Positions 130 to 8,405 of a stretch of 48,272 bases of DNA are shown here, one piece after another (the stretch's first letter is position 1; each line of letters opens with the position of its first letter). Both the position numbers and the translations under genes were made by a program. The DNA comes from Desulfobacterales bacterium. Lineage in GTDB: Bacteria; Desulfobacterota; Desulfobacteria; Desulfobacterales; JALSRD01. The notes under the pieces are model-generated. The model saw nothing but the letters and a program-made list of their open reading frames with translations. It was not told the origin of the DNA and made no database searches. The stretch is taken from assembly GCA_026984935.1 (NCBI GenBank), contig JALSRD010000072.1, forward strand, positions 1-48,272. The letters run 5' to 3'.

Positions 130-1641
130 ATGGCGGGAAAGTTGGTGGCAGACATGGCAAACAGGGCGTTTCGCGTACGTGCGGTTTTTATGGATGTGGA
201 TCCTTATGGCGGGCGGGCTGAGGCACAGACGCCGGGAGCGGCGGAGTTGCTGAAAGCGGCGTCGGAGCGCATCAGCCGGCTTTATGCGCACAAACTCAAG
301 ATCGCGCTTTTCGGCCGGGACAGCGCCAAGGTGCTGGCGGGTATGCCCGACGATGTGCGGGCGCTGTGCGACGGGATGCAGGCCGCCGACAATAGGGCCG
401 CAACGCCGGCCCATGACCTGGCTGCAGTGATCCGGCGCACGCTCGTTGATCTCGAGGTACCTGCAGGCAGCGCACTTGTGGTGTCCGGCCGGCCGGACCT
501 GCTGTCGGCCGCCGCCCGGATCGGTGCTGTGACGGTGGCCCTGGGGCTGTGTGCAGACGGCGCAAAGATCCCGACGGCAGATTACACAGCCGCCGACCCG
601 GCGGAACTGGAAACCGTTGTCCGCCTGGGCCTGCCGTTATCCGGCGGGAAATTGCCCAATGATCTGCTGGCGCGCCATTTCGGGCGGATTGCCATTGACG
701 ATCCGGCCCTGCTGGTACGGCCGGGCGTGGGCGAAGACACGGCCGCCGTGGACATTTCCGGTGAAGAAGTGCTGGTGATCAAGTCCGACCCGATCACCTT
801 CGCCAGCGATGCCATCGCCCGCTATGCCGTGCTGGTCAATGCCAACGACATTGCCACTGCCGGCGCCGTGCCGCGCTGGCTGCTCACCACGCTGATTTTC
901 CCCTCCGGCTCAACGCCTTCGGAAATCCTGCAGGTCATGGACGAACTGCAGGCTGTTTCCAGGCGCTTTCAGATTACCCTCTGCGGCGGCCACACCGAGA
1001 TCAGCGATGCGGTGCGGCGGCCGGTAATCACCGGTATGCTGGCGGGTACGGTGATGCGCCGGGATCTGGTGGACAAAGCCCGCATGCGGCCGGGTGACCG
1101 GATTTTCATCACCAAGGCGCTGGCGGTGGAGGGCACGGCCCTGATTGCCCGCGAGTTTGGCGCAAAACTGCGCCAGCTGGGGATGCCGGCGGCCGAGATC
1201 GACCGCTGCCGGGATTTTCTCGAGCACCTCAGCATTTTGTCCGAAGCGTATGCCGCCTCAACGCTTAAAGGCGTCAGCGCCATGCACGACGTGACCGAGG
1301 GGGGGCTGGCCACGGCGCTGACCGAGCTGAGTTGGGCCGGGGGCTGCCGGCTCGAGGTGGACATGGACGCCATCCCCGTCTTTGCCGAAACGCGCCGGGT
1401 CTGCGATCTGCTGGGCATAGATCCGCTGGGGCTGATCGGGTCCGGTTCGCTGCTGATCTGCTGCCGTCCGGCGGACGGGGACCGGCTGGTGGAGCGGGTA
1501 CGCAAAACCGGCGCAGCGATCACCCCGATCGGCAAAGCCCTGGAAGAGGGGCACGGGGTGCGGGCTTTGCAAAATTCCCGGACGGTGGCCTGGCCGCAGT
1601 TCGAGGCCGATGAAATCACGCGCCTGTACGGCGGTGCCTGA
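130..1641 (+). CDS. AIR-synthase-like protein with degenerate HAD-like N-terminal domain
   Basis: This protein of 503 residues has two parts. Residues ~15-165 resemble a HAD phosphatase that has lost its active site: the nucleophile loop reads VFMDVDPYGG instead of DxDGT, and the region expected to hold the GD(S)xxD motif reads VVSGRPDLLSAAARIGAV. Residues ~195-490 are an AIR synthase (PurM/HypE/SelD-like) ATP-binding fold, with GVGEDTAAVD at 199-208, NANDIATAG at 237-245 and GGHTE at 286-290. It is not a standard HypE, because the C-terminal cysteine motif is absent, and it is not recognisable as SelD. The substrate is unknown. ATG 130 and ATG 154 are both possible starts; neither has a strong ribosome site. 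The 3' end overlaps the convergent HAD gene by 26 bases. Confidence 0.75.
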   Translation: MAGKLVADMANRAFRVRAVFMDVDPYGGRAEAQTPGAAELLKAASERISRLYAHKLKIALFGRDSAKVLAGMPDDVRALCDGMQAADNRAATPAHDLAAVIRRTLVDLEVPAGSALVVSGRPDLLSAAARIGAVTVALGLCADGAKIPTADYTAADPAELETVVRLGLPLSGGKLPNDLLARHFGRIAIDDPALLVRPGVGEDTAAVDISGEEVLVIKSDPITFASDAIARYAVLVNANDIATAGAVPRWLLTTLIFPSGSTPSEILQVMDELQAVSRRFQITLCGGHTEISDAVRRPVITGMLAGTVMRRDLVDKARMRPGDRIFITKALAVEGTALIAREFGAKLRQLGMPAAEIDRCRDFLEHLSILSEAYAASTLKGVSAMHDVTEGGLATALTELSWAGGCRLEVDMDAIPVFAETRRVCDLLGIDPLGLIGSGSLLICCRPADGDRLVERVRKTGAAITPIGKALEEGHGVRALQNSRTVAWPQFEADEITRLYGGA

Positions 1642-2281
1642 TTCCGCCGGCCCCGGGGCTGCTCCGCGTTTCCAGATACGCCCGGATCTTCGAGAGATCC
1701 GAAACATGGCAGGCGGCCGCAAGCGTGGGGTTGCAATAGGCCGCCAGCGGTACGCCGGCGGCGCGGGCCGCGGCTTCATCGACGCCCGAATCGCCGATAT
1801 AGAGCATCTCACGGTTCTGGATGCCGAAATGGGACAAAACCCTTAACAGTGGTTCGGGGTGCGGTTTGGGATGCCGGACATCGTCGGCCGAAATGACCAG
1901 GTCGAACCAGGCATCCAGGCCGAATTTTTGCAGCACCGGACCAATGGTGTTGGTGCGGTTGGTCACCACGGCGGTCCTTACCCGCGGCTTCAGCCATCTC
2001 AACAGGTCCTCCAGATGCGGCTCCATGGCCATGTGGTCCAGGAAGGGCAGATAGTCGAGCCGCCGGCGGTAGGCCTGCACGCGTTCGATCAGCCGCGGGT
2101 CTTCGAACAGATGGGCGATGGCCGCGTGTACGGTGTGCATGTGCACGAAAGCGAACTGCGCCTCATCCATGGGCGGGCGGCCGAAGTGTTCCAGCAGGTG
2201 GTTGTAATAGCTGCGGTTGACCTGCGCGGTGTCGAACATGACGCCGTCACAGTCGAAGGCCACGGCCTTAATTTTTGTCAT
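1616..2281 (-). CDS. HAD family hydrolase (subfamily IA, phosphoglycolate phosphatase-like)
   Basis: A 221-residue haloacid-dehalogenase-type phosphatase. The nucleophile motif FDCDGVMFD gives Asp10 and the acid Asp12, VVTNRT supplies motif II, the HPKPHPE stretch carries the motif III lysine, and YIGDSGVDEAAARAAG is motif IV. A helical cap sits between motifs I and II (about residues 20-95), as in Gph-like enzymes, so the likely reaction is hydrolysis of a small phosphomonoester in the cytoplasm. The start has a GGGGAAGG ribosome site. It overlaps the upstream DUF1573 gene by 14 bases, which suggests translational coupling. The substrate cannot be told from sequence. Confidence 0.88.
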   Translation of the reverse strand: MTKIKAVAFDCDGVMFDTAQVNRSYYNHLLEHFGRPPMDEAQFAFVHMHTVHAAIAHLFEDPRLIERVQAYRRRLDYLPFLDHMAMEPHLEDLLRWLKPRVRTAVVTNRTNTIGPVLQKFGLDAWFDLVISADDVRHPKPHPEPLLRVLSHFGIQNREMLYIGDSGVDEAAARAAGVPLAAYCNPTLAAACHVSDLSKIRAYLETRSSPGAGGIRHRRTGA

Positions 2282-3041
2282 GGCCTTCCCCGGCTTTCCC
2301 GCCGGCGGCTGAGCCGTTTTTGCCGGCCGCCGACTCGGGCGGGCGGATCATGCCGAAAACGTTGATCGTCAATTCCGGCCGGATCGTGCTGTCCGTTTTC
2401 AGGATCACAGTGTCGACATACCGTCCGGCATCGCGCCTGACGTTTTCAACCTCGATTTTGTATGGGCTGTCGGCCTCCGGGTGGTCCATCAGGCGTACAT
2501 GGATGAATTTCCCCGTACGCGCGCGGGCGGCGACAACCTTGAAGGGATATTTTTTTTCGGGTTTGACGGTGACGGTCGCCTTTATCGTCTCACCCGCGGT
2601 TCCGAACAGCCGCAGATAACGCGGCTGTACGCTGGCGAACTTTTCCACCATGCCCGAAATGCCCAGACGCAGCTTGGGTGTATTGGGGTCGTTGGTGATG
2701 ACGACAATCTGTTTGTGGACCTTTCCGCCGCCGTAGCCCCTGGTATTGACCTGCACACGCACGTTGCCCCTGCCGCCGGCAGGGATGTCTCTGGTGTAAG
2801 AGACCGCCGTGCAGCCTCACCCGGTCTTGACGCGCTGGATGTGCAGCGGCGCATCCCCGTAATTTTCGATGACAAAGTCATGTTCGACCTTGGTGCCGTC
2901 CACTACCGGGGCGAATTCATAGGTGCGCTCGGGTGCCACCGCGCGCGGGGCCGCCGCCGATTCTTCGGCGGCCGGTGCCGCAGCGGACAGGATGAACAGG
3001 GCGAAAAACAGGGTCAACGCGTAAATCAGGCGTCGTTTCAT
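2268..3041 (-). CDS. DUF1573 secreted protein, probable selenoprotein (in-frame UGA, Sec75)
   Basis: Reading begins at ATG 3041 behind AAAGGAG and runs 257 codons with one in-frame TGA at 2817-2819 (codon 75). Residues 1-25 are a signal peptide, so the product is probably periplasmic. Residues ~40-150 match DUF1573: IENYGDAPLHIQRVKTG, then the TGA, then GCTAVSY, IPAGG, VNTRGYGG and ITNDPNTPKLRLGI. In the family the TGA position is the first cysteine of the conserved CGCT motif, so UGA would give U-G-C-T, a selenocysteine/cysteine pair (U75, C77). The frame is intact and family-like on both sides, and a hairpin starts 12 bases after the TGA. The alternative is a recent TGC-to-TGA nonsense mutation. 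The molecular function of DUF1573 is not established. Confidence 0.75.
2787..2804 (-). promoter_or_regulatory. Candidate bacterial SECIS hairpin after the in-frame UGA
   Basis: On the minus strand, 12 bases after the TGA, the arms GTCTCT and AGAGAC form a perfect 6-bp stem with the loop TACACC. Two further G-C pairs are possible below a 2x2 mismatch. The loop starts 18 bases after the UGA, inside the range known for bacterial SECIS elements. The usual G in the first two loop bases is missing, so the match to the consensus is incomplete. Confidence 0.45.
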
Positions 3042-3152
3042 CGGTGATGCTCCTTTGGCTGAGGTTATGAAAGCGGCCACGCAGGACCTAAAGCCGCGCA
3101 AAATTCCCCATGCGTGCCGGCCGGCGGAGGCGGGGCACAAGGGTTTGCCGGA

Positions 3153-3647
3153 TCAGCGGAGGCGTTGTTCCGCAATTGCGCCGTTTGCCGTGTCCACGGT
3201 GCAGAAACCCGGGCGGCCCTCTTTGCCCATGATTTCGCCCGGGTTGAGCAGAGGCGTTGCCCCCACCGTCTCAAGGCGCTGCACGTGCGAGTGTCCGTAG
3301 CAGACCAGGTCGTAGCGTTTTGACAGCGCCAGACCGCGCCCCACTGCATAATAGTGGGTCAGCGCGATACGGAAACCGTCGACATCGAGTTCGGCCACCA
3401 GGCCGTGCAGGTGAATCCGCGTCAGCTCCGTCAGCGCCAGTCGGGTCAACTGGTGCTGGTCGCCGTCGTTGTTGCCGAACACGCCGTGTACCGGCAGGCC
3501 GGCGGCGGCGAGTTCTTTCAGCATGAAGGGCGCCACGAAATCGCCGCAGTGCAGAATCATGTCCGCCTTTTCCCGCGAAACGATCTCAAGCGCGCGGCGC
3601 AGGTTCCAGATGTTGTCGTGGCTGTCGCTCATGACGGCGATGATCAT
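3153..3647 (-). CDS. YfcE/MJ0936-type metallophosphoesterase
   Basis: A 164-residue calcineurin-like phosphoesterase of the small YfcE/MJ0936 family. The metal-binding motifs are in order: DSHDN (residues 8-12), HCGDFV, GNNDGD, THYYA and GHSHV, followed by LNPGE. These coordinate two metal ions for hydrolysis of phosphodiesters in the cytoplasm; the natural substrate of the family is poorly defined. Length is normal. It is transcribed in the same direction as the DUF1573 gene, with about 110 bases between them, and lies downstream of priA. The cluster does not suggest a specific pathway. Confidence 0.88.
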   Translation of the reverse strand: MIIAVMSDSHDNIWNLRRALEIVSREKADMILHCGDFVAPFMLKELAAAGLPVHGVFGNNDGDQHQLTRLALTELTRIHLHGLVAELDVDGFRIALTHYYAVGRGLALSKRYDLVCYGHSHVQRLETVGATPLLNPGEIMGKEGRPGFCTVDTANGAIAEQRLR

Positions 3648-3713: not shown

Positions 3714-6176
3714 TTACATCATGAACACCGGATCCACATCGACTTCGAGGCGCGTGCCCGCCGCAAGCCTGGTGCCCCCTTTATCAAATATCAGGCGGCG
3801 GGTAAAGCGATGAAGTGCGCGCGTGCGCGGGCCGCACAGCAGGATCTGCCAGCGGTAGCGGTTGGCCAGCCGGGCCAGCGGGGACTCGATGGGGCCCAGC
3901 ACCGTGATCTGCCCGCCGAATTCCGGCTGCCGCAGCAGCTTCCGGCAGCCGTCGCCGATGTGCGCGGCGCTGTGGCGGGTTTTGCGGGCATCGCGGCCCG
4001 AAATTCTGATCTGCACCATGCGCGCCGTGGGCGGGTAGCCCAGTTGGGTGCGGAAAACGATTTCGGTATCGTAGAAAAGATCAACATCTTGTTTTCTGGC
4101 GGCCGCGATGCTGAAATGCTCCGGGTTGAAGGTCTGCAAGATCACACGGCCGGGAGATGTCCCCCTTCCGGTGCGTCCGGCCACCTGGGCCAGCAGCTGG
4201 AAGGTGCGTTCGGCAGCCCGGAAATCGGGGAAGTTCAGCGTCAGGTCGGCACAGATGATGCCCACCAGCGTAATGTTGGGGAAATCGTGACCCTTGGCCA
4301 CCATCTGGGTGCCGATCAGGATGTCGATGCGGCCGTTGCGCAGCCCCTTGAGGATGCGGACCAGAGAACCCCTGGCGGCGGTGGTGTCGGCATCCATCCT
4401 GGCTACCGTTGCAGCCGGGAACAGGGATTTGACGGCGGATTCGATTTTTTCGGTCCCCAGGCCCAGGGGCTTGATGGCGGCACTGCCGCAGGCTTCGCAG
4501 TAGATGGCCGCAGGGCGCGTCAATCCGCAGTAGTGGCATTTGTAAACTCCGGCGGCGCGGTGCAGCGTCAGGGAAATGTCGCAATTCTGGCAGCGCACCG
4601 GCCGGCCGCAGGCACTGCAGACCGGAAAGCCGGCAAAGCCGCGGCGGTTCAGAAAGAGCAGCGCCTGTTGGCGGTGCGCCAGGGTTGTCGCAATGGCGGT
4701 TTTCAGCCGGGGGCTGATCATGTGATCCGCACTGCGGGAAGAGCTCTTGCGGCGCAGGTCGACGGTTTCGATGTGCGGCAGGGGCCGCTGGGCCACACGC
4801 CGGGTGAGCCGCAGGAGCCTGAATTTTCCCTGGCGGGCGTTGTACAAAGACTGCATGCAAGGCGTGGCCGATCCCAGAAGGACCGTGGCCTGTGCCAGCT
4901 TGGCGCGCACCACGGACAGATCGCGGGCGTTGTAGAGCAGGCCACGCTGTTCCTTGTAAGAGCTGTCGTGCTCCTCGTCCACCACGACCAGCCCCAGGTT
5001 GTCGAAAGGCGCGAAGACGGCCGAACGCGTGCCCACGGCGATGGCAACCTCGTGCCGTACGATGCGCCGCCACTGGTCGTAGCGCTCGCCGGCGGAAAGC
5101 CCGCTGTGCAGCAGTGCCACGCGCTCGCCGAACCTGGCCCGGAAGCGCCGCTCCATTTGCGAGATCAGGGCGATCTCCGGAACCAGCACCAGCACCGTGG
5201 CCCCTGCGGCCATGACTTCGGCGGCCAGGCGCAGGTAGATTTCGGTTTTGCCGCTGCCGGTGACGCCGGCCAGCAGAAAGGCGCAAAACCCCTTCCCAAA
5301 GGCGTCTTTCAGCGTGTTAAAAGCCGCCTGCTGCTCGTCGGTCAAATGCGGCGGCGTGTCCGGCGCGATGGATTCTCCGAAAGGATCACGGTAGACCGGC
5401 CTTTCCTGGACCTTGATCACCCCGTGTTTCTCCAAAAACGGAAGATAGCCGGCCGATCCGGGCAAGCGCTGCTTCAGGGTTTTCAGGGGCAGGCTGCCGC
5501 ATTGCGCGAGCAGGTCGATGATTTCCCGGCGGCGGGCCGCAAAGCGGTCTTCGGGGATGTCGCTTTTGGCCAGTGTGACCGTGCGCTGCATCAGCGGCCG
5601 CACCGTACCGCTCTTGATGCGGCGCCGGGCAGCTACGAGGCCGTTTCGGGCCATGCCGCGCAGCAGGGCGGCCGGGACCCGGCGGCCCAGCCTGCGGCTC
5701 AGCTGACGGGTTGAAAGCGCCTGTTTTTGCAACTGGTCCAATACGGCCAGTTCCAGTGCTCCGGCCCGGGCGTCGCGCAGGAGCGTGCGGCCGCTTTCCG
5801 TGATGGCGAAGGTCACCTGATCGGCCAGGGTCAGGCTGCCGGGCAGGGCGCACTGAATGACCTCCCCGATGGATCGCAGGTAGTAGTCGGACGTCCATTT
5901 GAAAAGCGGAAGCATTGCCGGCGGAAACAGCGGCGTGTCGTCGAGGATTTCTATGACTGGCTTGATGGCGGCGGTGTCGGGAACCGATGCCGCAGGTCCT
6001 AGTATGTAGCCGGTGATCTTGCGCTGGCCGAAAGACGCGCTGGGGCGGCCGAAAGGGATCAGCACGCGTTTGCCGCAGTCGGCCTGTCCTCTGAGAGCCG
6101 GGGGAACGCTGTAGGTCAAGGTATGCTGCAGCGGCAGGGCGACAGCCACTTCGATGAGGTCTTGCGGCCGGCTCAT
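3714..6176 (-). CDS. priA: Primosomal protein N', replication restart helicase PriA
   Basis: An 820-residue superfamily 2 DNA helicase that recognises stalled forks and reloads the replisome. The N-terminal DNA-binding domain opens with VAVALPLQHTLTYSVP. Walker A is GVTGSGKTEIY (about residues 304-314) and the DEEH box follows near residue 400. The cysteine-rich zinc insert CSACGRPVRCQNC, CHYC and CEAC provides the expected paired zinc sites. The helicase C-terminal motifs LIGTQMVAKGHDFP and QVAGRTGRG are intact. I chose ATG 6176; an in-frame TTG lies eight codons earlier at 6200, and neither has a good ribosome site. The opposite strand carries a very long open frame here, which is a composition artefact. 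Confidence 0.96.
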   Translation of the reverse strand: MSRPQDLIEVAVALPLQHTLTYSVPPALRGQADCGKRVLIPFGRPSASFGQRKITGYILGPAASVPDTAAIKPVIEILDDTPLFPPAMLPLFKWTSDYYLRSIGEVIQCALPGSLTLADQVTFAITESGRTLLRDARAGALELAVLDQLQKQALSTRQLSRRLGRRVPAALLRGMARNGLVAARRRIKSGTVRPLMQRTVTLAKSDIPEDRFAARRREIIDLLAQCGSLPLKTLKQRLPGSAGYLPFLEKHGVIKVQERPVYRDPFGESIAPDTPPHLTDEQQAAFNTLKDAFGKGFCAFLLAGVTGSGKTEIYLRLAAEVMAAGATVLVLVPEIALISQMERRFRARFGERVALLHSGLSAGERYDQWRRIVRHEVAIAVGTRSAVFAPFDNLGLVVVDEEHDSSYKEQRGLLYNARDLSVVRAKLAQATVLLGSATPCMQSLYNARQGKFRLLRLTRRVAQRPLPHIETVDLRRKSSSRSADHMISPRLKTAIATTLAHRQQALLFLNRRGFAGFPVCSACGRPVRCQNCDISLTLHRAAGVYKCHYCGLTRPAAIYCEACGSAAIKPLGLGTEKIESAVKSLFPAATVARMDADTTAARGSLVRILKGLRNGRIDILIGTQMVAKGHDFPNITLVGIICADLTLNFPDFRAAERTFQLLAQVAGRTGRGTSPGRVILQTFNPEHFSIAAARKQDVDLFYDTEIVFRTQLGYPPTARMVQIRISGRDARKTRHSAAHIGDGCRKLLRQPEFGGQITVLGPIESPLARLANRYRWQILLCGPRTRALHRFTRRLIFDKGGTRLAAGTRLEVDVDPVFMM

Positions 6177-6278
6177 TGATGATTTTTTTATGGAGCGCAA
6201 AAAGGGTTTGAGTGAAAACGGCGGTGAAGATCGCCACCATCGGAGAAAGCGGCCACAGGGGGTGTACGCACCGCCGTG

Positions 6279-7520
6279 TTACGCCGGCGGTTGCGGCGCG
6301 GGCGCTTTCTGCCGGACGTAATACTCGGTAATGCGGTTGCCGTCTTTCCTGCGAACCGTCACTTCATAATTGTCTATGGTGATTTTTTCTTTTTCCCGGG
6401 GGATCCTGCCGATGCGCTCGAGCACGAACCCGGAAAAGGTGTCGTATTCCCTGGAGTCGGGGATGTTCATTCCGATGGTTTCGTTGACCTCATCGATTTC
6501 CGATTTTCCGAGTACGATCCACTCGCCGGTTTTCACCCGGACGATGTGTTGCTCTTCACGGTCGGTTTCGTCGCTGATCTCGCCGACGATTTCCTCGAGT
6601 ACATCTTCCAGCGTGATCAGGCCAGCCACACCTCCGTGTTCGTCGATGACAACGGCCAGGTGGTTCTTGCGCCGTTTGAACTGGTGCAGCAACTGGTCGA
6701 TCTTTTTGTTTTCGGGAACGAAATAGGCCGGCCGCATCAGTCTGCCGATTTCGATGGGGGCCTGCGATGTGACCTGGTGCATGAATAAATCCTTGATGTT
6801 GATGATTCCGATAACGTGGTCCAGGTCGTCTTTGATGACCGGAATGCGCGTGTAGCCCGATTGGACAACGGCCGCCAGGTCCAGCGGCTGGTTGATGTCG
6901 ATGACGAACATGTCGGTGCGCGGGGTCATGATCTCCGAGGCATTGGTATCGTCAAACTCAAAGATGTTTTCGATAAATTCCCTTTCTTCCTCTTTGATCT
7001 CCCCCTCTTCTTCCACCACCTCGACAAAGGTCTTCAAATCGTCCTCGGTGATGCCCGAGGCCTGTTTGATTTTGCCGGTCAGCTTGGGAATAAAGTTAAG
7101 CAGTTTGATGGCCGGCCAGAAGAGTATCGACAGCCAGTAAATGGGATAGACCACGGCCCGGGCGACCAGTATGTTGTTGCGTGTCGCCAGGGATTTGGGG
7201 AAGACTTCGCCGAACACCAGAATGGTAAAGGTCATGACACCGGTGGCGATGCCCACGGCGTTGTTGGGGATGAATTTGAGCATCAGCGAGGTGGCGAGGG
7301 CCGACGCCCCCACGTTGGCCAGGTTGTTGCCGATCAGGATGGTGGAGAGCAGGCGGTGGGGATCATCCTTCATCTGTTCGATAAGCCGAAAGCTCCTGGC
7401 GCCGTCTTTGGCCAGGTGCCGTGCGCGCGTCCTGCTGATGGAAAAGAAGGCCGTCTCCGCGGAAGAAAAAAATCCAGATATCAGCAGCAGGCTGACAAGG
7501 ATTGTAATATCAAGTGTCAT
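6279..7520 (-). CDS. CNNM/CBS/CorC_HlyC domain membrane protein
   Basis: A 413-residue protein of the CorC/HlyC (CNNM, DUF21) family. Residues 1-~190 form the membrane CNNM domain with about four hydrophobic segments and the SGFFSSAETAFFSISRTR signature. Residues ~200-320 are a CBS pair, with IMTPRTDMFVID and AVVIDEHGGVAGLITLEDVLEEIVGEI as landmarks. Residues ~335-405 are the CorC_HlyC domain that ends such proteins. Homologues are linked to magnesium or cobalt efflux and metal homeostasis, with CBS domains sensing nucleotides. It sits alone between priA and the cytochrome gene, all minus strand. Transported ion not predictable from sequence. Confidence 0.92.
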   Translation of the reverse strand: MTLDITILVSLLLISGFFSSAETAFFSISRTRARHLAKDGARSFRLIEQMKDDPHRLLSTILIGNNLANVGASALATSLMLKFIPNNAVGIATGVMTFTILVFGEVFPKSLATRNNILVARAVVYPIYWLSILFWPAIKLLNFIPKLTGKIKQASGITEDDLKTFVEVVEEEGEIKEEEREFIENIFEFDDTNASEIMTPRTDMFVIDINQPLDLAAVVQSGYTRIPVIKDDLDHVIGIINIKDLFMHQVTSQAPIEIGRLMRPAYFVPENKKIDQLLHQFKRRKNHLAVVIDEHGGVAGLITLEDVLEEIVGEISDETDREEQHIVRVKTGEWIVLGKSEIDEVNETIGMNIPDSREYDTFSGFVLERIGRIPREKEKITIDNYEVTVRRKDGNRITEYYVRQKAPAPQPPA

Positions 7521-7764: not shown

Positions 7765-8259
7765 CTATTCTCCCTTCGGGTGGCATTTGACACATCCTGT
7801 GGGGCCGACGGGAGACGGTTTTTCTTCCAAAAGCTGGGTGGATGCGGCCAGCAGCTGGTTTTTGGCCTTGATTTTCTTGTGGCACTTGATGCACAGGCCG
7901 TGGAATGCATTTTTATAGTACCGTGTCCTGATGGTCGCATCGGCGGCTTTTTGGCTGCCGGCCGGGGGCAGTTTCGCCAGGCTGTGGCAGCCGGCAGTCA
8001 TGCATGATTTGACCTTCTCGGTGGCCGTCCATTTGTGGTGGCAGGTCCGGCAGGTGAAATTGAAGTGTGTGCTGTGGGGAAATTCAACCGGCGTCCGCTT
8101 GACGGTGGCGCCTTCCGGAGGCTTTAACGTTATGGTTCCCATGGGGATGCACATGGTTTCATCAGTCGGCTGTGCATTCTTGTCGGCAGCTGCAAGAAAG
8201 TTTCCGGAAAACAACACGACCGCTGCGAAAACCACGATCACAATGCCCGCTTTAAACAT
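7765..8259 (-). CDS. Periplasmic tetraheme class III cytochrome c
   Basis: A 164-residue cytochrome. A signal peptide covers residues 1-25, giving a periplasmic product. Four heme-attachment sites are visible: CRTCH (70-74), the longer CMTAGCH (86-92, CX4CH), CIKCH (123-127) and CVKCH (156-160). Histidines at 62, 65, 75 and 120 are candidate distal ligands. The mix of CX2CH and CX4CH is typical of the cytochrome c3 family, which shuttles electrons between periplasmic hydrogenases or formate dehydrogenases and membrane complexes in sulfate reducers. I moved the start to ATG 8259, behind GGGGGTG, because the upstream extension lacks a signal peptide. No redox enzyme lies beside it, so its partner is unknown. 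Confidence 0.9.
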   Translation of the reverse strand: MFKAGIVIVVFAAVVLFSGNFLAAADKNAQPTDETMCIPMGTITLKPPEGATVKRTPVEFPHSTHFNFTCRTCHHKWTATEKVKSCMTAGCHSLAKLPPAGSQKAADATIRTRYYKNAFHGLCIKCHKKIKAKNQLLAASTQLLEEKPSPVGPTGCVKCHPKGE

Positions 8260-8405
8260 GCGACACCCCCCGGTAAAAGCCTCTATGGCGCACTCATGAA
8301 CAGTCCGGCATTTCCGATTTGCCCCGTCTGCGGCCCGAATGCGCACTGCTTGACAGCATGCAGGCCGGTGCGGAGCGTGTGCTTCCCCTGCCCCAGGGGA
8401 AAAAG

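Follow-up and report, generated by a model that had tools for sequence, protein, structure and literature searches.

The DUF1573 locus

The window (the whole stretch of DNA analysed, 48,272 nucleotides) contains on its minus strand a gene of the DUF1573 family that starts with ATG at 3041, ends with TAA at 2268 and has a TGA as its sole in-frame stop (Table 1). Translation of 2268-3041 has confirmed the single frame of 257 codons, broken only by this TGA, that had been proposed in the sequence-only reading, and the AAAGGAG ribosome-binding site named there is present upstream. The family-typical sequence that it had recognized on both sides of the TGA was also recovered, as the Pfam profile DUF1573 (PF07610) runs across the codon from residue 38 to residue 132 (E 1.2e-19, 70.6 bits against a gathering score of 26.1). 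A second Pfam match, to the HYDIN/VesB Ig-domain family PF22544, covers residues 40-130 (E 6.4e-10). The perfect 6-bp hairpin described 12 bases after the TGA (H1) exists as claimed, and a second hairpin just beyond it (H2) had been overlooked. The Rfam scan of positions 2200-3100 gave only a sub-threshold dinG match, which was taken as chance.

Table 1. Genes and elements at the DUF1573 locus, in window coordinates.
Feature	Position	Strand	Basis
DUF1573 (OS_HP2 family) gene with selenocysteine, 257 codons plus TAA	2268..3041	-	translation, Pfam, NCBIfam
In-frame TGA at codon 75, interpreted as selenocysteine; next residues Gly76-Cys77-Thr78	2817..2819	-	translation and homologue codons
Hairpin H1: GTCTCT, 6-base loop, AGAGAC; loop start 18 nt past UGA	2787..2804	-	folding, named-structure count
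Hairpin H2: stem of 8 bp with GGC at the apex; loop start 38-39 nt past UGA; matches the bacterial SECIS loop pattern	2767..2785	-	folding, scan
Ribosome-binding site AAAGGAG	3050..3056	-	sequence read directly
HAD-family phosphatase gene; ATG inside the terminal part of the DUF1573 gene; recurring neighbour	1616..2281	-	ORFs, Pfam/NCBIfam, neighbour count
YfcE-type phosphodiesterase gene, upstream, same strand	3153..3647	-	Pfam/NCBIfam
priA (primosomal protein N'), on the same strand upstream; neighbour conserved in some relatives	3714..6200	-	NCBIfam, neighbour count

The protein also matches the NCBIfam model NF041425, "OS_HP2 family (seleno)protein", over residues 37-133 (139.8 bits, cut-off 100), and carries the UGC motif of this DUF1573 selenoprotein family as U75-G76-C77. 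Whether a selenocysteine-containing DUF1573 protein had already been reported was left open by the sequence-only reading, and the answer is positive: besides NF041425, the sections consulted of two papers list a DUF1573 domain protein with the motif UGC as a selenoprotein family (PMC9312934, 2022; PMC13188914, 2026), the latter citing Zhang and Gladyshev 2007 and the Olavius algarvensis Delta 1 symbiont. The protein of this locus has the same domain (PF07610) and the same UGC motif, with no family difference from the OS_HP2/DUF1573 selenoproteins. The selenocysteine-containing family is thus already catalogued, though uncharacterised, and the locus adds a member to it. No function for the OS_HP2/DUF1573 family was found in the portions of the literature and listings consulted; DUF1573 is not named in the part of the main text of PMC8318568 that was available, and it is otherwise mentioned, in the literature sections searched, in connection with the iron response in Bacteroidetes.

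Codon 75 in related genomes

A search for DUF1573 copies has been carried out in 116 genomes, namely the own genome, another one of the same genus (G001) and the rest of the same order. Matches were found in 103 of these 116 genomes, and in the own genome there was none other than this locus. A scan of genome contigs for DUF1573 returned three loci, one of them close, and a plasmid search yielded two distant matches and nothing useful. The codon aligned with codon 75 was read in 134 same-order copies, the window among them (131 loci were fetched). It was TGA in 109, TGC in 20 and TGT in 3, two copies fell outside these classes, and TAA or TAG was seen in none. The two exceptions were L165, whose TGA is shifted one codon upstream, and L175, an alignment gap. 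Codon 77 encodes cysteine in 108 of the 109 TGA copies, and past the TGA the frame continues without a stop over a median of 168 codons. In a phylum-wide sample that includes the own order, DUF1573 matches were found in 151 of 395 genomes, and the best 40 places outside the order comprised 21 with TGA and 19 with a cysteine codon at position 75. The comparison proposed earlier, a search for UGA aligned with cysteine in the DUF1573 homologues, was therefore positive both within the order (109 TGA and 23 Cys copies of 134) and outside it (21 and 19 of 40). A TGA restricted to this strain, which would have spoken against the proposal, is excluded because the copy of G001 (L051, 59% identity) also has TGA at codon 75.

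Two variants of the motif were observed in these sets. The L165 copy (genome G051) shows the context G-G-U-A-S, with no cysteine two codons on, and is a one-Sec variant. A subfamily of cysteine copies outside the order (L201, L202, L203, L206, L207 and similar) has D-C-A-C-T in place of U/C-G-C-T.

A quick tree of the copies, with good support for 28 of its 128 inner branches, mixes selenocysteine and cysteine copies and requires at least 14 changes between them, 6 of which are forced by well-supported branches, against a mean of 21.3 after shuffling. This suggests that selenocysteine and cysteine have been repeatedly exchanged along the DUF1573 tree.

The codon counts bear directly on the reading of the TGA as a true stop, which would leave a 74-residue truncated protein followed by a pseudogene tail, or would reflect a sequencing error. 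A table-11 translation does end at this TGA, but the codon is TGA in 109 of 134 copies and cysteine in 23, with two shifted or gapped copies and never TAA or TAG; the downstream frame is open, the same TGA/Cys pattern is replicated outside the order, and strong local RNA structure accompanies the TGA (see below). The probability left to a true stop is practically nil.

Selenocysteine machinery and decoding of the UGA codon

The own genome (3.89 Mb in 112 contigs, 99.45% complete) contains the four components that had been proposed for checking, selA (613.6 bits), selB (387.2 bits), the tRNA-Sec gene selC (76.1 bits) and selD (362.3 bits), the last of which has an in-frame TGA itself; an absence of the machinery, which had been named as grounds for rejection, is consequently excluded. 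SelB was found above the cut-off in 98 of the 116 genomes, and 13 of the other 18, G001 among them, carry a TGA copy of DUF1573. In these 18 genomes selA was present in 17 and tRNA-Sec in 13, and the one lacking selA (G032) does have tRNA-Sec. The sub-cut-off SelB matches of G006 and G008 are fragments that start inside the model. We read the SelB gaps of the 18 genomes as probable gaps of the assemblies.

The presence of the full machinery also argues against a reading of the UGA by a suppressor that would insert an amino acid other than selenocysteine. In addition, the homologues place cysteine at codon 75, and the SelD and FdhA genes of the same genome have in-frame TGA codons followed by typical SECIS hairpins. 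No support was found for such a non-Sec readthrough, which is very improbable and has been rejected in view of the selenocysteine machinery and the cysteine of the homologues. The assignment of UGA 2817-2819 to selenocysteine is, on these comparative grounds, strongly supported.

RNA structure downstream of the UGA codon

Folding energies were set against 40 to 100 synonymous recodings that preserve the protein and follow the codon usage of each gene, and both this analysis and the SECIS scans have been carried out on 107 of the 109 TGA copies, since L173 and L176 were too short. The stretch from +9 to +54 after the TGA gave a mean z of -2.33 in the 107 TGA copies versus -0.09 in the 23 cysteine copies (offset +9), and in the TGA copies the mean z lay between -0.46 and +0.25 at offsets of at least 30 bases before or at least 36 after the TGA. 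Considered separately, H1 (+12 to +36) had a mean z of -2.68 in selenocysteine copies versus -0.78 in cysteine copies of the same order, and H2 (+33 to +57) had -1.98 versus +0.25. A weak H1 signal is retained in the cysteine copies, 9 of 23 being below -1, so H1 pairing partly persists in some of them. Outside the order, the values were -2.67 (21 Sec) versus +0.15 (19 Cys) for H1 and -1.38 versus +0.26 for H2, the 21 selenocysteine copies not being fully independent because L189 and L190, as well as L222 and L228, resemble each other across the folded segment. The conserved RNA structure expected after the UGA is thus present, stronger in selenocysteine than in cysteine copies and replicated outside the order. 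For this gene alone the folding signal was weak (z -1.54, a value reached by 14 of 200 shuffles), and its best fold pairs the UGA region differently.

Covariation was evaluated in 99 of the 107 sequences, after leaving out eight copies that were far outliers or had an insertion close to the hairpins (L100, L095, L101, L097, L116, L161, L177 and L181). Changes on both sides were found in 13 of the 15 named pairs of the H1 and H2 structure, and the covariation score was 0.229 compared with 0.147 after shuffling, with 0 of 500 shuffles as high. Slid registers gave lower covariation (0.092 to 0.176), and register -1 equals the real structure in pair-type count (33) but not in the other scores, a control that leans towards the named structure as this was derived from the same 99 sequences. 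RNAalifold, run on the same 99-row alignment, proposed only 3 weak pairs. A pseudogene or a sequencing error has been rejected on the basis of the 109 TGA copies among 134 together with the RNA structure linked to the TGA.

Comparison with the bacterial SECIS model

The bacterial SECIS model, as given in the legend of Fig. 2 of PMC13188914, has a loop of 3-9 nt with G in its first two places, a stem of 4-16 bp, a spacing of 16-37 nt and an energy of at most -7.5; according to the sections consulted of this 2026 review, a subset of bacterial SECIS elements departs from the standard model. The fit was scored with a simple in-house scan (stem of at least 4 bp, energy of at most -7.5, loop of 3-9 nt starting with GG). 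At 16-37 nt the model fitted 29 of 107 selenocysteine copies and 2 of 23 cysteine copies, and at 38-40 nt it fitted 84 of 107 and 2 of 23, respectively. In this gene a fit at 36 nt requires a 9-nt loop, and a 5-nt CGGCG loop lies at 38 nt.

H2 resembles the bacterial SECIS model as a hairpin placed after the UGA, with the apical pattern N1-G-[G/U]-N-N2 in 71 of 99 copies, but its spacing is mostly 38-40 nt instead of the 16-37 nt of the model, and it is separated from the UGA by an additional conserved hairpin, H1. The Gs of the H2 loop are also forced by a conserved glycine codon, so the stem alone is independent evidence. G occupies the first two loop places of H1 in 29 of 99 copies. Two other selenoprotein genes of the same genome were examined, those of SelD (L183) and the formate dehydrogenase alpha subunit (FdhA, L229), and both have in-frame TGA codons with ordinary SECIS hairpins, with a GGUC loop 17 nt after the UGA in SelD and a GGUCU loop 18 nt after it in FdhA. 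As the H1 loop starts at 18 nt, H1 has the usual position but not the usual loop sequence.

The family may use a composite SECIS element of two hairpins, with H1 in the usual place mostly without the G signature and H2, which carries the GG loop, roughly 20 nt beyond it, a reading that we hold to stand in even balance. If true, it would define a distinct class of bacterial SECIS elements in which H1 folds away the extra distance or acts on the ribosome and SelB binds H2. A tentative case can also be made for H1 alone being a non-canonical SECIS element with H2 as an auxiliary, as opposed to SelB binding at H2 and H1 serving to shorten the path or to slow the ribosome. The loop start at 18 nt, as in the FdhA (18) and SelD (17) genes of the same genome, and a folding signal that is stronger for H1 than for H2 agree with H1 as the SECIS element; on the other side, only 29 of 99 H1 loops start with GG, and the GG pattern sits in H2, at 38-39 nt.

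A limited literature search found no description of a bacterial SECIS element with two stem-loops, and the term "two hairpin" is absent from the portion of PMC13188914 consulted. The double hairpin may be undescribed, within the scope of a search that did not extend to Zhang and Gladyshev 2007. Neither the two-hairpin element nor its recurrence beyond the order, nor the arrangement of genes described below, was found elsewhere in this limited search.

Gene neighbourhood

In 88 of the 109 selenocysteine loci and 6 of the 23 cysteine loci the DUF1573 gene is followed directly, on its own strand, by a HAD hydrolase gene, and a PriA gene lies upstream in 49 and 3 of them, respectively; loci cut by a contig end are scored as misses in these counts, 127 of the 134 loci having 1200 bases downstream and 121 having 2500 upstream. 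Since in the window the HAD gene begins before the DUF1573 gene has ended and this neighbour is recurrent, both genes are taken as an operon. Rarer neighbour clusters of the selenocysteine loci include DNA polymerase I (24 loci), uracil phosphoribosyltransferase (18) and a metallophosphoesterase (14). A small protein encoded on the opposite strand, some 3.4 kb upstream (cluster 7, e.g. L082:12083-12436 +), for which no Pfam match was obtained, is found in 33 selenocysteine and 2 cysteine loci. Redox genes were absent among the annotated conserved neighbours (HAD phosphatase, PriA, phosphodiesterase, DNA polymerase I and uracil phosphoribosyltransferase). We take the gene order as probably supporting orthology more than function.

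Other genes of the window encode a 503-residue protein (130-1641, plus strand) with C-terminal AIR-synthase domains and an extra N-terminal part, which scores below the HypE, SelD and ThiL cut-offs and is an unassigned member of the AIR-synthase superfamily; a CNNM/CorC-type protein with CBS domains (6279-7520, minus strand); and a class III cytochrome c family protein (7765-8346, minus strand).

Protein fold and conserved residues

The AlphaFold2 model, built with 29 sequences, consists of two beta, Ig-like domains (mean pLDDT 91.4, pTM 0.76), with U75-G76-C77 in a loop of the first domain flanked by strands 66-73 and 77-82. The helix that this model shows at residues 2-19 is predicted to be a signal peptide, and the protein should be periplasmic. 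Structure comparison of domain 1 revealed a match to the VesB Ig domain (Z 12.3; 96 residues at an rmsd of 1.9), as well as to the ASH/PapD-like domains of HYDIN and CEP192. The likeness to the HYDIN/ASH/VesB-type Ig domains (PF22544) is one of fold and profile, and the fold in common with VesB, HYDIN and CEP192 shows no function. A PDB profile search with the alignment A2 (29 copies picked by hand from the 134) gave marginal matches only, the best of them to troponin I (E 0.015), and these were read as chance.

Residues conserved in at least 90% of both the 107 selenocysteine and the 23 cysteine copies are His54, Asn60, Gly62, U/C75, Gly76, Cys77 and Thr100, position 75 being entered as C by construction in the selenocysteine rows. 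His54 is conserved in 94% of the 107 selenocysteine copies and in 96% of the 23 cysteine copies.

Discussion

On the sequence evidence it is almost certain that this gene encodes a selenoprotein. The explanation that we hold highly probable as a whole is an OS_HP2/DUF1573 protein decoded with selenocysteine that would be exported, fold into two Ig-like domains and work by thiol/disulfide exchange through a reversible selenenyl-sulfide. The ribosome would decode UGA 2817-2819 as selenocysteine by means of SelB, tRNA-Sec and the two-hairpin RNA located just downstream, and the product would be exported through its N-terminal signal helix and fold as two Ig-like domains. Sec75-Gly76-Cys77, in the loop of the first domain, would most likely form a reversible selenenyl-sulfide bond and could exchange with thiols and disulfides of periplasmic partners, as the CxC motif of CsgC, with electrons supplied by a DsbD-type membrane protein. 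The own genome contains two DsbD_TM matches, so that such an electron donor is possible.

Periplasmic thiol/selenol-disulfide exchange is likely to be the role of the protein, by analogy with CsgC, which is described in the sections of the literature consulted as a periplasmic protein with an Ig-like fold and a CxC motif of -139 mV. CsgC and nDsbD, as presented in those sections, have a periplasmic Ig-like fold with a close pair of redox-active cysteines, arranged as CxC in CsgC, to which the modelled Ig-like fold and the U-G-C motif of the probably periplasmic DUF1573 protein would correspond. The DUF1573 protein differs from both in having two Ig-like domains and selenocysteine in place of the first cysteine, and the likeness to CsgC is proposed as a working analogy. 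No CsgC or DsbD family match was obtained in Pfam at E values up to 0.01, where only DUF1573 and PF22544 appeared, and neither protein is among the best 50 matches listed by Foldseek or VIA-align, further down which they may be present. CsgC may be regarded as the nearest working analogue found for a U-G-C motif in an exported Ig-like domain.

Selenocysteine and cysteine are good ligands of soft metals. The protein could alternatively be a selenoprotein in which U75 and C77, together with the conserved His54, bind a metal or metalloid and carry out no redox exchange. The conservation of His54 in the selenocysteine and cysteine copies and the ligand properties of both residues fit this proposal, but no further conserved ligand set was seen, the L165 copy has its UGA one codon earlier with no cysteine after it, and no metal-transport family appears among the annotated neighbour clusters, some clusters being without annotation and cluster 7 without a Pfam match. 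Metal binding is considered unlikely, and thiol/selenol-disulfide exchange remains the preferred role.

A plain standard-code reading splits this conserved and widespread selenoprotein in two. The pairing of selenocysteine with cysteine, the fold and the conserved gene order offer concrete tests of a periplasmic redox role for the family, and the two-hairpin RNA bears on the definition of bacterial SECIS elements.
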